DNA from: Candidatus Poribacteria bacterium
Lineage (GTDB): Bacteria > Poribacteria > WGA-4E > WGA-3G
Direction of reading: 5' to 3'
DNA: 64,000 bases
Assembly: GCA_022821965.1 (NCBI GenBank)
Contig: JAJECN010000022.1
Coordinates: forward strand, 1 to 64,000
Both the position numbers and the translations under genes were made by a program. Positions within the stretch are counted from its first letter, which is position 1. Each line of letters starts with the position of its first letter. The notes beneath the pieces are model-generated. The model saw nothing but the letters and a program-made list of their open reading frames with translations. It was not told the DNA's origin and made no database searches. This document shows, piece after piece, positions 8,974 to 37,167 of the stretch.

Positions 8974-9002
8974 TTGACAGCCTCCCGAATTTATGATAAA
9001 CT
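8974..9002 (+). promoter_or_regulatory. Sigma-70-type promoter
   Basis: A perfect TTGACA box and TAAACT are separated by 17 nt, with the -10 ending 53 bp before the dehydrogenase ATG. Just upstream (8863-8893) is a CTACACAGATACC...TACGGGG sequence that recurs near 18923-18950. Confidence 0.55.
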
Positions 9003-9055
9003 TCGGCGTATCCAAACAACTCTCACAGACAATTCTACAACGAAGGAGACTATTA

Positions 9056-10003
9056 ATGGCTAAAATCAAGGTCTTGATTGCCAGTGGAATCAGCCAAGAG
9101 GTTGCGGATATGCTAAAGGATGCACCGCCAGAAGTGGAAATCAATTTTTTGCCGGAAGGCGAGCAGCTCAGCGACCACCTTTCAGATGTCGAGATCCTCT
9201 ATGGAACAGTGTCAGAGACGGCATTCCCACATGCGACTTCCCTTCAGTGGGTCATGCAGCCATTCGTAGGGGTGGAAGGCTCTATGTATCCCGCCTTTAA
9301 AGAGAGTGCTATCACACTCGTGAACAGTAAACGGCTGTATGGACCGCAGCTTGCTGAACACGCGTTCGCGCTGCTCCTCGCGCTGACACGAGGCATCAAC
9401 ACACAACTCGATTTGATGCGAGAGAAGGAATGGAAGTGGCTACCGTGCGCTGAGGTATCTGGAATGACGATGGGAATCCTCGGACTCGGCGGTATCGGTA
9501 GAGCCGTCGCACAACGCGCCAAGGCGTTCGATTTCAATGTGATCGCAGTAGACCCTGAACCGATGGATAAGCCAGATACCGTTGATGAGTTGGGACAACT
9601 GGATTGGCTGCCGGAGTTTCTATCTCGCTCGGAAGTCTTGACGGTCTGCTGTCCAATTACACCGCAAACCCACAAACTGCTATCTCATGCTGAATTTGAT
9701 GCGCTGCCAGAGGGCAGCTACTTCATCAACGTCAGTCGTGGAAAGGTAGTAGACGAGGAGGCACTGATCGCTGCACTGGAAAATGGGAAATTGGCGGGTG
9801 CAGGATTAGACGTAACCTATACAGAACCCTGTCCACCAGACAATCCGTTATGGACGCTCCCGAACGTGATTCTAACGTCCCATACCGCTGGCGCATCACA
9901 GAATATCGCCAAACGCGCGATGGAACTCTTCATTGACAACATGCACAAATACGTGAATGGTGAACCGCTCACCAACGTTGTGGACAAGGACAAAGGATAT
10001 TGA
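9056..10003 (+). CDS. D-isomer-specific 2-hydroxyacid dehydrogenase
   Basis: A 315-residue cytoplasmic oxidoreductase starting at the ATG preceded by GAAGGAG. The NAD-binding GILGLGGIGRA loop sits at residues 140-150. The catalytic triad is visible as Arg228 (NVSRGK), Glu257 (TYTEPCPP) and His276 (LTSHTAG). The family reduces 2-keto acids or oxidises D-2-hydroxy acids with NAD(P)H. The TEPCPPDNPLW segment is usual for glyoxylate/hydroxypyruvate-type or phosphoglycerate-dehydrogenase-like members, but the substrate cannot be fixed. A sigma-70 promoter lies upstream and a hicB-like gene follows 15 bp later, perhaps on the same transcript. Confidence 0.85.
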   Translation: MAKIKVLIASGISQEVADMLKDAPPEVEINFLPEGEQLSDHLSDVEILYGTVSETAFPHATSLQWVMQPFVGVEGSMYPAFKESAITLVNSKRLYGPQLAEHAFALLLALTRGINTQLDLMREKEWKWLPCAEVSGMTMGILGLGGIGRAVAQRAKAFDFNVIAVDPEPMDKPDTVDELGQLDWLPEFLSRSEVLTVCCPITPQTHKLLSHAEFDALPEGSYFINVSRGKVVDEEALIAALENGKLAGAGLDVTYTEPCPPDNPLWTLPNVILTSHTAGASQNIAKRAMELFIDNMHKYVNGEPLTNVVDKDKGY

Positions 10004-32032: not shown

Positions 32033-33055
32033 ATGCAAAAGTCAATGACGAGTCGTGAACGCGTACTCGCCGCGCTCCGCAAGGAACAGACCGACCGAAC
32101 ACCGGTCTGTAATCCCACCTCTGTTGCGACTGTTGAACTGATGGATCTGGTTGATGCCCCTTTCCCACAAGCAAATCGAGAACCGGAACTCATGGCACGC
32201 CTCGCCGCTACCGGATATACTGAACTCGGATTTGATACCATCATGCCCGTTTTCACAATTATCCAAGAATCGAGTGCCCTCGGTTGTAAGATTCAGTGGG
32301 AACAGAAGGACAACTGGCCGACCGTTAGAATGCGAGAACCGATCTGGGAAGACGTTGACGATATCGTTATACCGAAAGATTTTTTGACCCATCCGGACAC
32401 GCAGTGTGTACTCGAAGCAATTAAAATCCTGAAAAAAGAATACGGTGATGAAGTCGTTATCATCGGGAAAACAATGGGACCTTGGTCGCTCGGCTACCAC
32501 TGCTTCGGCGTTGAACCTTTTTTGCTGCTCTCACTTGACGATCCCGGTAAAACAAAACTCGCTCTTGATCGGATGAAGGAGGCAACTGTTGAATTCGGCG
32601 TCGCACAAATTGAGGCAGGTGCCGATGCTCTTACGCTTCCAGACCACGCTACCGGCGACCTCGTTAGTGGCGAATACTACCAACGTTATCTACGAGACCT
32701 ACACATCGAATTTGTTGAGCGTATCCCCATTCCCTTAATACTGCATATCTGTGGTCGCACTGTTGACCGAATGGAATACATCGCACAAACCGGCATGGCT
32801 GCGTTCCATTACGACTCTAAAAACGAACCTCAGGAATCTATAGACATCATCCGAGATCGCATTGCTCTCATTGGAAACATCAATAACCCTGAAACGCTCT
32901 TTTCCAAAGAACCGGAAGACGTTAAAGCAGAGGTCGTAAAAAACCTTGATGCCGGGGTACCACTGATCGGACCGGAATGCGCGATCCCCCTTCAGACGAC
33001 AATCGAAAACCTACAAGCAATTCCGAAAGCAGTGCAAGAATGGCACCGGGCGTGA
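32033..33055 (+). CDS. Uroporphyrinogen decarboxylase-family protein, methylcobamide methyltransferase-like
   Basis: A 340-residue protein with AAAGGAAAT before the ATG. It has the TIM-barrel UroD fold beginning with MTSRERVLAALRKEQTDRTP. Instead of the porphyrin-binding arginines of HemE it carries the zinc-site pattern of the MtaA/MtbA branch: His237-x-Cys239 in LHICGRT and a later Cys in GPECAIP (about residue 316). MtaA-like enzymes move methyl groups from corrinoid proteins to a thiol. Which thiol or donor is used here is unknown. It follows an unrecognised gene and is followed by the dockerin-thioredoxin pair. Confidence 0.8.
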   Translation: MQKSMTSRERVLAALRKEQTDRTPVCNPTSVATVELMDLVDAPFPQANREPELMARLAATGYTELGFDTIMPVFTIIQESSALGCKIQWEQKDNWPTVRMREPIWEDVDDIVIPKDFLTHPDTQCVLEAIKILKKEYGDEVVIIGKTMGPWSLGYHCFGVEPFLLLSLDDPGKTKLALDRMKEATVEFGVAQIEAGADALTLPDHATGDLVSGEYYQRYLRDLHIEFVERIPIPLILHICGRTVDRMEYIAQTGMAAFHYDSKNEPQESIDIIRDRIALIGNINNPETLFSKEPEDVKAEVVKNLDAGVPLIGPECAIPLQTTIENLQAIPKAVQEWHRA

Positions 33056-33081: not shown

Positions 33082-33690
33082 ATGAAAAAAATCGTAGCTT
33101 TACTGCTAATCACAAGTTTAATGCTGATAGGTTTGAGCGCAGGTCGCGCACAGGACGCAGATTTTGATGCTTTGACGGCATCCGATGTTAATGTTGATGG
33201 CATTGTAAATATCCTCGATTTGACGCTTATCGCTACGCACTTCGGTGAAACGCCTACCGAAGACCAGACCTCAAATCCAGATGTTAACGGCGATGGCGTT
33301 GTGAATATCCTTGATTTGACACTCGTCGCCAGCCATTTCGGCAAAAAATCGGGAATTCCCTTTGAAGTCACAGATGCAACTTTTGACGACATCGTTCTGG
33401 GTTCTGAACTCCCCATTGTCGTAGAATTTAAAGACGATACCTGACCGTTTTGTATACTGATGAGACCGGTGGTCGCAGAAGTGGCATTAGAATATCGAGA
33501 AACATTCAGTTTCGTTAAGTTGGACGTGAACACCCAGCGGGAAAAGACCTTGGAATATCGTATCCGTGGAACACCGACCTATATTGTATTCAAAGATGGA
33601 GAGATTGTAGGAGGGTTTGTTGGCGCAATGCCTAAGGCTGAATTGGTGCAACGAATCCTCGGGATCTTGGAGATTGAGGACCCTGAATAA
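33082..33690 (+). CDS. Predicted selenoprotein: signal peptide, dockerin repeats and thioredoxin with UxxC (in-frame TGA)
   Basis: Read through TGA at 33442-33444 the gene encodes 202 residues. Residues 1-23 are a signal peptide (KKIVALLLITSLMLIG). Two dockerin-type calcium-binding repeats follow (DVNVDGIVNILDLTL and DVNGDGVVNILDLTL). Then comes a complete thioredoxin fold: VVEFKDDT, the TGA, PFC, MRPVVAEVALEY, VKLDVNT and the cis-Pro loop GTPTYIVF. The TGA falls exactly at the first cysteine of CxxC (U121-P-F-C124). Codons on both sides are in one frame and the second half is not degenerate. A CGGAG site precedes the ATG. It is probably exported. The alternative, a pseudogene stopped at TGA, is unlikely because the neighbour has the same stop in the same place. 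Confidence 0.8.
33461..33477 (+). promoter_or_regulatory. Candidate bacterial SECIS stem-loop, first gene
   Basis: Starting 17 nt after the TGA, UG-A-GACC pairs with GGUC-G-CA around a GGU loop (six base pairs and one A-G mismatch). The apical G lies 24 nt after the TGA, inside the 16-37 nt range accepted for bacterial selenocysteine insertion elements. The sequence is also coding. Confidence 0.6.
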
Positions 33691-33749
33691 CTTGTGCGGA
33701 AAATAGAAATTGATTCGTTGCGAACCACTTTGATAAAAGGAAGAAACAG

Positions 33750-35165
33750 ATGAAAAGATTGATTTGTTTGCTGCTAATATTAAGTTTAGCACTGCTCGTT
33801 TCAACGGTGAGTTACGCCGAAGATACGGATACTGATATCCTAAGGGCAGCCGATGTCAATACGGACGGTGTGATAAACATCCTTGATCTGACCCTCGTCG
33901 CTTCTCATTTCGGCGAGACCCCTGCCAAAGACCAGAGTCCAAATCCAGATGTCAATAGGGACGGCATCGTCAACATCCTTGACTTGACACTCGTCGCCAG
34001 CCATTTCGGCAAAACCGTTCCGCCCCCTATAGTATTTGTTAGCACCCCGTTGTTTCTTAGCGTGAATCCAGAAAGCACCTCGCAGCTTGACATGAACGAT
34101 ACGATCACGCTTACTTTTGATAATATACCTGAAGACGTTAAAGTGAACACAGGGGTGGCTATAGTTGAGGGCAAAACTGTGAAAATTACAGGTCCTTTCA
34201 CTCAAGGTCCCCTTGCTCTGACAATCACTTGGACGGGTGGTACCCAAACGCTCAACTATACTGTGCGTCCATCTGTGGCTTTTGTTAGCGTGGATCCAAG
34301 AGCTGACACCGAACTTACTGTGAACGACACCATTATTTTTACCTTTGATAACACGCCAGATGAGGTTACAGTAAGTACAGGTGTCGCTACAGTGGAAGGC
34401 AAAACCGTGAAAATCACAGGTCCCTTTACTCCGGGTCCGCTTAACTTGACAATCACATGGAATGATGGGAGTCTAACATTTACTTACACTGTTGCCAAAC
34501 CAGATATCGATGCCCCCGATATTACCAGCGGAACCGTCAGCGATGGGGACAAAGATGTTGACCCTAAAGCGATTAACAGTGATGCGAGGATTGAAATTGA
34601 GTTCAGCGAAGAGGTAAGCGGTAACATCGCACTGCAAACCGCAGCAGGCGTTGACATCGGTTGGCTTGGCAGCGTTGAAGGTAATAAAGGGATCCTCGAA
34701 CTGGTGAAAGGGAAAGAACTTGGGAACGAGACAACTTACGTAACTTACGTAATTGTAGGGAAAGTTGCAGACGCTGCTGGCAATGAAACGGATATCCGTA
34801 TTACTTTTACCACCGACATCACATACGATGGCATTCCAATTGAAGTTAGCGACAAGACATTTGACACCGTTGTGCTCAAGTCTGATGTTCCCATCGTGGT
34901 TGAGTTTTATACGGATTGGTGACCATCCTGTAAAAGAATGGCGCCAGTTGTCGCCGACATTGCCTTAGACGAAAAGGACACATTTGTCGTTGCGAGGTTG
35001 AACAATGATGAGAATGGAGAAACAATCCGAAAATATCTGGTCAGAGGACAACCTATTTATCTTGTATTCCAAGATGGAAAGATAGTTGGACGTTTCGGAG
35101 GCGCGATGCCGAAAGACCAGTTTGTCCAGAAGATCCTGAGTGCTCTAAATATTGAAGGAAATTAA
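33750..35165 (+). CDS. Predicted selenoprotein: dockerin, Ig-like domains and thioredoxin with UxxC (in-frame TGA)
   Basis: Read through TGA at 34920-34922 it encodes 471 residues, starting after AAAGGAAG. A signal peptide (1-22) and two dockerin repeats (about 34-56 and 66-87) come first. Two near-identical Ig-like domains follow (about 92-170 and 172-249, each with EGKTVKITGPFT), then a third, SbsA-like Ig domain (253-358). The C-terminal thioredoxin has VVEFYTDW, TGA, PSCKRMAPVVADIALDE and cis-Pro GQPIYLVF. The active site reads W-U391-P-S-C394 against W-C-G-P-C in standard thioredoxin. It is an exported modular version of the preceding gene, about 60 bp away. Both contain the same rare recoding site. 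Confidence 0.82.
34940..34955 (+). promoter_or_regulatory. Candidate bacterial SECIS stem-loop, second gene
   Basis: GGCG pairs with CGCC starting 18 nt after the TGA. A further C-G pair closes a CAGUU loop and leaves one bulged U. The apical G lies 25 nt after the TGA, matching the position in the first gene although the stem sequence differs. Confidence 0.55.
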
Positions 35166-35186: not shown

Positions 35187-35245
35187 AAACACCCCAGCAA
35201 AAACTCCCTCGCCAGCGGCAGTGGGGTGTTTTTGCTGGGGTGTTT
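35187..35245. terminator. Long inverted repeat, probable bidirectional terminator
   Basis: AAACACCCCAGCAAAAAC (35187-35204) and GTTTTTGCTGGGGTGTTT (35228-35245) are perfect 18-bp complements around a 23-nt loop. They lie between convergent genes. The arms are copies of the 22-nt dispersed motif. Confidence 0.7.
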
Positions 35246-35268: not shown

Positions 35269-37167
35269 TTACAGACCATTTCGGTGATAAAACCACCACT
35301 CCACCAGAAGAAGCAAACACGCCGTGAGTGCAAACCAACGCCATATCTCCTGCGCGATGGGTTGTAAAACTACTCCGTCTGCTGAGTCTTCCAGCGTCGT
35401 TGACCTTGAAGAATATAGCAGTGCTGATTCTTTAGCGTTCAATAGGTTGATCGTGAACCGCTCAGGCTCCGTATCATCAGCAAGGAGTGTATAGATCCCT
35501 ATCTGATCTGTCTGGGTGAATATTGGATTGTTCAGTTCAACCGTTGTTTTATCGGGTTTCTGGACTTGAAAACCGATGTCCGCCATTGCTGAACCAATCC
35601 TTATTTGTTCTCCAGTTCGGAATGCATGCCGGGTTCTATCCTCTTGAAACAGAAGCGGTTGAAGCGGCGCAGTCCCTGCCTCAAACCATGCTAAACATTG
35701 ATAAACAAACTGCGGTGCGGCTGGAATTGTCAACGCGAAGGACGATATTTCAGTGTTGAACGCATCAAACTCAAAAACGAGAAGTTGACTATCCGACTTC
35801 CGACCGATCCATATAAGTGCCCCCTTCTCTGTCTCAATAAGCGAATCTCCCCAGAGTGGCAATTCTCGATGTCCAGATTTTTGCACCAGCACCCCTTGCA
35901 GCGATACACCCCTCATGAGTGGATGACCCTCATCCTCTTTGATGACGCGTGTAGGAGAACTAACCATTTCAACGGCAGAAACATCGTCAAAAATGAAAGG
36001 TAGTTGGCTGCCGGGGTTAATCAAGATTAGATGCGTTCCAGAGGCAACTTCAGAAAAAGTACCGAGAGCCTCGCGTCCGGTAGGCGTGCTACCATCAAAA
36101 ATTGTGAGATCCGCATCAACAGTGCCGTGATAATCCACAGGATCAACCTGCTCTAACTTCAGATGACTTCCGTATGATTTCAAAAGGTTAGAGAGCAAAG
36201 AATTTCGATTGTCGCTGACAAGCAAAATATGAAATGGAGGGACAGCAGATAGGATTGCCGAAGCACTGTTATCAAGTGGAAAGTCATCTTCGACATCAAG
36301 ATGTACGCTCATAATCTTCCCCTCTAAACCGCTCGGTTCCCCTGAAAACAGGATGGATTTAGTTTTACCGGGGGGGGTAGATACCGTTCTATCATCAAGG
36401 GAGACATTTTCGACCGCTAATCGAACGTCGAATTCTTTGGATACCTCTGTGAAGTTTTGAATCCCCACTAACACCTCGTATAGGTTCCCTACGACTTCAA
36501 CACTGAACCGGACGATACCGACATTATCCGTTTTCCCGCCCACTCCGATTTTATGGACAGGTAGCGATATATCCGGTAGGTTTTCAAAGGTATCGCTGAT
36601 AAAGACGATCTTGTCTTGTGGTGATTCGGCATAGCGCGTTGCTGCATCAAAGACGGGACGGAGATTTCGCGGGATATGGGTTGAAGTAATGTTTTCTATA
36701 GCACGGTGGAGTTTCGCTGTATCTGTCGTGAACGCTTGCTGAATATAGGTTTCGGGTGGATTCGTAGCCATGAGCATGATTCCACCACTCGCGGAGACCT
36801 CTTTAATGTACTTCTGCGCTTCCTGCTTTGCGAGTGTTAGGCGAGTTTCTCCCATCTCTGTTGATAACATACTCGCGGAATTATCAACGATAAGCATCGC
36901 TTTGCCGGGCATGAAACCCGGTTTGCGCAATGCGGGGCGCGCTATGCTGCATGTGAGAAGAAGTAACAACAGCACCTGTAGCAGCGGCAGCAGGAGGTTA
37001 CGAAGCTTTTGGAAAGGGACATTCGCTCTCCTGTCCTCATCGGTGGCGAGCCAAAGCATAATGCTGGGGACGAGGCGGGTATGGCGGCGCAATTTCAGGA
37101 AGTGAAGTGCCACCACAATAGGAATAACACCCAGCAGATAAAACGCGGTGGGGTTCAAGAACTGCAT
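35269..37167 (-). CDS. BatA-type vWA membrane protein
   Basis: A 632-residue inner-membrane protein. It begins with the BatA/aerotolerance N-terminal domain: FLNPTAFYLLGVIPIVVALH, a basic LKLRRHTR patch, and a second hydrophobic helix at about 57-75. A vWA domain follows with MIDAS motif D95-N-S-A-S. The middle and C-terminal parts are beta-rich (CARDB-like and glutamine-amidotransferase-like stretches), and a last hydrophobic helix is near residue 612-627 (WFALTACLLLL). Proteins of this type sit next to MoxR ATPases in many genomes, but none is seen here. No ribosome-binding site is obvious. The gene is upstream of nothing else on this strand. Confidence 0.82.
   Translation of the reverse strand: MQFLNPTAFYLLGVIPIVVALHFLKLRRHTRLVPSIMLWLATDEDRRANVPFQKLRNLLLPLLQVLLLLLLTCSIARPALRKPGFMPGKAMLIVDNSASMLSTEMGETRLTLAKQEAQKYIKEVSASGGIMLMATNPPETYIQQAFTTDTAKLHRAIENITSTHIPRNLRPVFDAATRYAESPQDKIVFISDTFENLPDISLPVHKIGVGGKTDNVGIVRFSVEVVGNLYEVLVGIQNFTEVSKEFDVRLAVENVSLDDRTVSTPPGKTKSILFSGEPSGLEGKIMSVHLDVEDDFPLDNSASAILSAVPPFHILLVSDNRNSLLSNLLKSYGSHLKLEQVDPVDYHGTVDADLTIFDGSTPTGREALGTFSEVASGTHLILINPGSQLPFIFDDVSAVEMVSSPTRVIKEDEGHPLMRGVSLQGVLVQKSGHRELPLWGDSLIETEKGALIWIGRKSDSQLLVFEFDAFNTEISSFALTIPAAPQFVYQCLAWFEAGTAPLQPLLFQEDRTRHAFRTGEQIRIGSAMADIGFQVQKPDKTTVELNNPIFTQTDQIGIYTLLADDTEPERFTINLLNAKESALLYSSRSTTLEDSADGVVLQPIAQEIWRWFALTACLLLLVEWWFYHRNGL

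Follow-up and report, generated by a model that had tools for sequence, protein, structure and literature searches.

Tandem dockerin-bearing thioredoxins of Candidatus Poribacteria are predicted selenoproteins

Two adjacent genes of Candidatus Poribacteria, denoted here A and B, almost certainly both encode selenoproteins, in which an in-frame UGA stands first in the redox motif of a C-terminal thioredoxin (Trx) domain. The genes lie in a window of 64,000 nucleotides, the whole stretch of DNA analyzed, which is part of contig C9 in an assembly of 5.7 Mb whose nearest relatives are Candidatus Poribacteria MAGs. We infer insertion of selenocysteine (Sec) from comparative evidence, namely the conservation of the UGA codon among relatives, the Sec machinery of the genome, the constraint on a hairpin downstream of the UGA in gene B and the ordinary use of TGA as a stop elsewhere in the window. 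Both parts of this prediction, that Sec is encoded and that the domain is a thioredoxin, are supported by comparison. An earlier note on this DNA, made from the sequence alone, had implied a recoded TGA at the active-site Cys position in two paralogous thioredoxins; the alignments, the machinery, the codon conservation and the constrained hairpin all bear this out.

Gene architecture and genomic context

Gene B (33750..35165, plus strand; orthologues in loci L018-L059) is predicted to encode a selenoprotein of 471 amino acids that comprises a signal-peptide-like N-terminus, a type I dockerin (PF00404; 33849..34001, E 2.3e-11), Ig-like repeats and a Sec-thioredoxin domain (PF00085; 34839..35135). 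The frame contains a single TGA (34920..34922, codon 391) in the context EFYTDW-U-PSCKRM, which places Sec first in the UxxC motif (WUPSCK), and terminates at TAA 35163-35165. Direct reading of the sequence agrees with the earlier note both on the coordinates of this W-TGA-P-S-C-K and on the residue number. Gene A (33082..33690, plus strand) encodes a predicted selenoprotein of 202 amino acids with a signal-peptide-like N-terminus, a type I dockerin (33181..33333, E 9.5e-13) and a Sec-thioredoxin domain (33364..33657, E 7.6e-19), and also has a single in-frame TGA (33442..33444, codon 121; DDTUPFC in the context EFKDDT-U-PFCILM). As had been claimed for the adjoining genes, the two TGAs align, and the Trx domains are 52% identical; gene A, unlike gene B, lacks the Trp that precedes the redox motif.

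The domain assignments are well above the Pfam gathering scores, with 79.6 and 68.1 bits for PF00085 in the two proteins (gathering score 23.5) and 48.6 and 44.1 bits for PF00404 (22.9). When aligned with Cys-containing thioredoxins, the TGA falls opposite the first Cys of the canonical Trx CxxC, and in the Cys paralogues of the same phylum it faces TGC or TGT. Against solved thioredoxins, the Trx domain of B gives a match at 5e-22, with Sec opposite the first active-site Cys, and the redox motif and the cis-Pro are at their canonical places (U/C38, C41 and P82 are invariant in alignment A3). An AlphaFold2 model of this domain, with Cys substituted for Sec, has a pLDDT of 91.2 and a pTM of 0.85, and its Foldseek matches are thioredoxins (TM 0.80-0.87, normalized by query length). 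Read by eye, the N-termini of A and B look like Sec-type signal peptides. Between the dockerin and the Trx domain, B contains repeated stretches, with a copy number that depends on the species; this region matches no Pfam model at the cut-off, and ‘Ig-like’ is a description. NCBIfam likewise has no model that matches the Sec-thioredoxins at the cut-off.

In same-genus relatives, the A/B pair is flanked by the same conserved neighbors as in the window, namely a URO-D family protein with an ordinary TGA stop upstream (32033..33055, plus strand) and a convergent BatA/VWA protein downstream (35269..37167, minus strand). The order of the two genes depends on the clade, with A before B in one and after B in another; the A-B order goes with UPFC forms and the B-A order with UIYC forms, within the same flanks (33082-35165 in the window and relatives L018-L026). 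In genus g4, A alone was seen in the three loci examined, with the same downstream gene as in the window.

The modular structure of B bears on the possibility that the UGA is mainly a regulated stop, such that the principal product is a dockerin (or dockerin and Ig-like) protein without the Trx domain, and readthrough with Sec is limited to times of abundant selenium. In B, the N-terminal part is a complete module on its own, and bacteria often insert Sec with partial efficiency. Against this, termination at the UGA would leave a broken Trx fragment in both genes, and the perfect, terminator-like 18-bp inverted repeat between the convergent genes (35187..35245, arms 35187-35204 and 35228-35245, no strand assigned) lies 3' of the TAA of gene B, not 3' of its TGA. 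We consider such regulation unlikely; it is compatible with Sec insertion rather than opposed to it.

Predicted SECIS hairpins downstream of the UGA

The selenoprotein prediction for gene B draws on a hairpin at 34940..34955 (plus strand), in which 34940-34945 pair with 34950-34955, with one C-U mismatch, around the apical loop AGUU (34946-34949). Codons 7-11 past the UGA, which start 18 nt downstream, after an invariant Met, show no third-base variation in any of the 190 degenerate cells across 38 distinct sequences. The encoded amino acids do vary in this frozen stretch (Ala/Val/Glu at codon 7, Pro/Thr/Ala at codon 8 and Ala/Thr/Ser at codon 11), and the third bases of the flanking codons vary as well. 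With the UGA as columns 1-3, the stem is formed by columns 21-26 and 31-36, and the pair 23-34 (34942-34953 in the window) is compensatory: C-G in 20 sequences, U-G in 9, U-A in 4 and A-U in 1. One sequence has A-G at this pair, and its inner pair 25-32 is A-U. One of 500 shuffles, and none of the slid controls, reached the covariation score, although relatedness inflates such counts. RNAalifold recovers the same stem, minus the mismatched pair, whereas folding of single sequences was no better than that of shuffles (z of 0.43 for B and -0.99 for A), and Rfam gave no match within the window at the gathering threshold. Bacterial SECIS elements are expected to form a hairpin soon after the UGA with a small apical loop that contains G (PMC1088965), and the B hairpin, with its AGUU loop, has this form. 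On the strength of one covarying pair and the synonymous freeze, the element in B is a predicted bacterial SECIS hairpin.

In gene A, the corresponding region (33462..33478, plus strand) can be folded according to two models that overlap (33462-33476, loop GGU; 33467-33478, loop GGUC), and each of these hairpins is partly supported. A third type of Sec-thioredoxin, C (UGFC/UGAC), occurs in the same genus (L060:6510, L061 on the minus strand, L077:9281, L078:1910 and L079:2044) and, about 31-44 nt past the UGA, may form a hairpin (GAUGC-AGUU-GCAUC).

Sec machinery and TGA as an ordinary stop

The genome encodes SelA, SelB, SelD and tRNA-Sec, all above the curated cut-offs. The tRNA-Sec (78 bits; called by ARAGORN as tRNA-SeC with the anticodon TCA, i.e. 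UCA) adjoins SelB. SelD itself (L015:1531, contig C15) carries a TGA in frame, within the motif KCAG-U-ASK, at the Sec position known from SelD selenoproteins (UxxK; table in PMC9312934). Across the phylum, SelB was detected in 76 of the 85 genomes and tRNA-Sec, searched with strict filters, in 74, the absences being mostly in incomplete genomes. Co-occurrence of SelA and SelB has been reported in sponge symbiont bins (PMC5649159).

Elsewhere in the window, TGA is the ordinary stop of 8 of the 36 long ORFs, and MnmE (contig C14) ends at TGA after its C-terminal CVGK. A global change of the code was rejected on these grounds. A reading of the UGA as an amino acid other than Sec, be it Cys via a tRNA-Cys(UCA) or Trp or Gly via a changed code, would suit a codon that stands at a Cys position, but is highly improbable given the continued termination at TGA, the full set of SelA, SelB, SelD and tRNA-Sec, and the constrained hairpin downstream of the UGA.

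Two other TGA codons in this genome are worth recording. The ORF at 8993-10003 of the window has a TGA stop beyond which the frame continues for 86 codons into what seems to be a distinct small gene, which starts at an ATG of its own and is HicB-like by eye; this arrangement is ordinary and could mislead a scan for TGA readthrough. Also, a Thioredoxin_7/TPR protein (L088:1322-2230, contig C14:13821-14729) has an in-frame TGA in DFYTDW-U-GSCSRL and is probably a further selenoprotein.

Conservation of the TGA codon

Relatives were gathered by protein searches of the phylum and of GTDB contigs, and the codons were then read. The active-site codon is TGA in all 29 distinct sequences of paralogue A, all 38 of paralogue B and all 5 sequences of type C, never TAA or TAG, and each of these sequences has Cys three codons past the TGA. 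The conserved TGA thus extends over a genus and further. In paralogue D, represented by four sequences (L060, L061, L064 and L077), the equivalent codon is TGC or TGT. Type C is located several kb away from D in three loci.

That the sequence on both sides of the TGA remains intact, as the earlier note had stated, holds across the relatives: the frame past the TGA is open in all 38 B and 29 A distinct sequences, for 81-91 codons in A and for 76-83 in B, save for one short copy of 51. In this copy (L027:3904-4062 and L059), which perhaps is decaying, the B orthologue stops at TAG 51 codons past the TGA, and the end of the Trx domain is lost. Past the TGA, the median dN/dS is 0.17 in A and 0.45 in B, which is indicative of purifying selection; the only moderate value in B stems in part from the suppression of synonymous change by the hairpin.

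A nonsense mutation, pseudogene or assembly error, with a dead Trx domain or a wrong base, has a practically negligible probability, even though TGA commonly serves as a stop in this genome, because 67 distinct sequences, drawn from many independent MAGs and including single-contig assemblies, have the same TGA codon ahead of a frame that is open and under purifying selection; pseudogenes and sequencing errors were rejected on this conservation.

A tree of the Trx domains, which is based on few columns and has many open forks, places the A sequences in one clade (100/100) and three of the D sequences with C within the Sec-bearing set (100/95); the fourth (L064) falls with canonical thioredoxins. 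The grouping of these three D sequences with C suggests past exchange between the Cys and Sec forms.

Proposed mechanism

If A and B are selenoproteins, a ribosome that reaches the UGA (34920 in gene B, 33442 in gene A) would encounter a SECIS within the coding sequence, about 18 nt downstream, which would bind SelB with Sec-tRNA(UCA), so that Sec would be inserted in place of termination, yielding a UxxC thioredoxin. Because of the signal-peptide-like N-terminus and the dockerin, the selenothioredoxin would be expected to act outside the cytoplasm. There, Sec391 would attack a substrate disulfide or an oxidized thiol, and Cys394 would resolve the intermediate. Re-reduction of the domain would most likely depend on the membrane protein DsbD, which is present in a single copy in the genome, on the same contig; VKOR, sought in the genome as an oxidant, was not found. 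Through its dockerin, the enzyme may be anchored to proteins with cohesin domains. In this genome, large ORFs (contigs C2, C57, C38 and others; L085-L087) contain 15 matches to cohesin domains and are possible partners of the dockerins. A broader scheme, in which the pair belongs to a surface-docked extracellular selenium redox system, with dockerins on Poribacteria cohesin scaffolds and variable Ig-like spacers, acting on extracellular disulfides or oxidants, is speculative and, on present evidence, doubtful.

Relationship to known selenoproteins and implications

Thioredoxin selenoproteins (PF00085, UxxC) are an established family (PMC9312934, PMC13188914), with which A and B share the domain, the in-frame UGA and Sec as the first residue of the CxxC motif. 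The differences are that, here, the Trx domain is C-terminal in an apparently exported protein with an N-terminal type I dockerin (and, in B, Ig-like repeats), that the genes form tandem paralogous pairs and that no NCBIfam model matches them at the cut-off. Other Trx-like selenoproteins, namely DsbA-like, DsbG-like, thiol:disulfide interchange and TlpA-like (UGC) proteins (PMC9312934, PMC13188914), are likewise Sec-containing thiol oxidoreductases of the Trx fold and belong to types that are usually exported, but they represent other Trx subfamilies, with no mention of a dockerin. The E. coli TrxA (PDB 2trx) agrees with them in its fold (TM 0.81, normalized by query length), in where the redox motif lies and in the cis-Pro segment, but has Cys32 where Sec is predicted here, whereas A and B are multidomain and have an apparent signal peptide; the same genome also encodes, as a separate protein, a thioredoxin with Cys that is of ordinary size (C7:65867). 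With the dockerin-bearing enzymes of cellulosomes, the pair shares the type I dockerin (PF00404) and the presence of cohesin domains elsewhere in the genome, but the cargo is a redox domain, not a glycoside hydrolase, and docking is putative.

Neither of the two selenoprotein reviews (PMC9312934, PMC13188914) mentions Poribacteria or dockerins, and literature searches that combined Poribacteria or selenoprotein with dockerin returned nothing relevant, which, given their partial coverage, is weak evidence. The recoding and the domain are known, and the dockerin architecture, the tandem pair and the spread through the lineage seem to be unreported in the literature and curated models searched.

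The Sec system is kept by most of the phylum, as the distribution of SelB indicates. The B hairpin, which shows frozen synonymous positions and compensatory changes in dozens of species, provides a clean case for SECIS recognition in an uncultured phylum, and the family as a whole offers a natural comparison of Sec and Cys, with Sec in A, B and C and Cys in D. Because automatic gene callers end genes of the A and B types at the TGA, a lineage-wide family of apparently exported redox proteins is likely hidden in the databases as truncated proteins.
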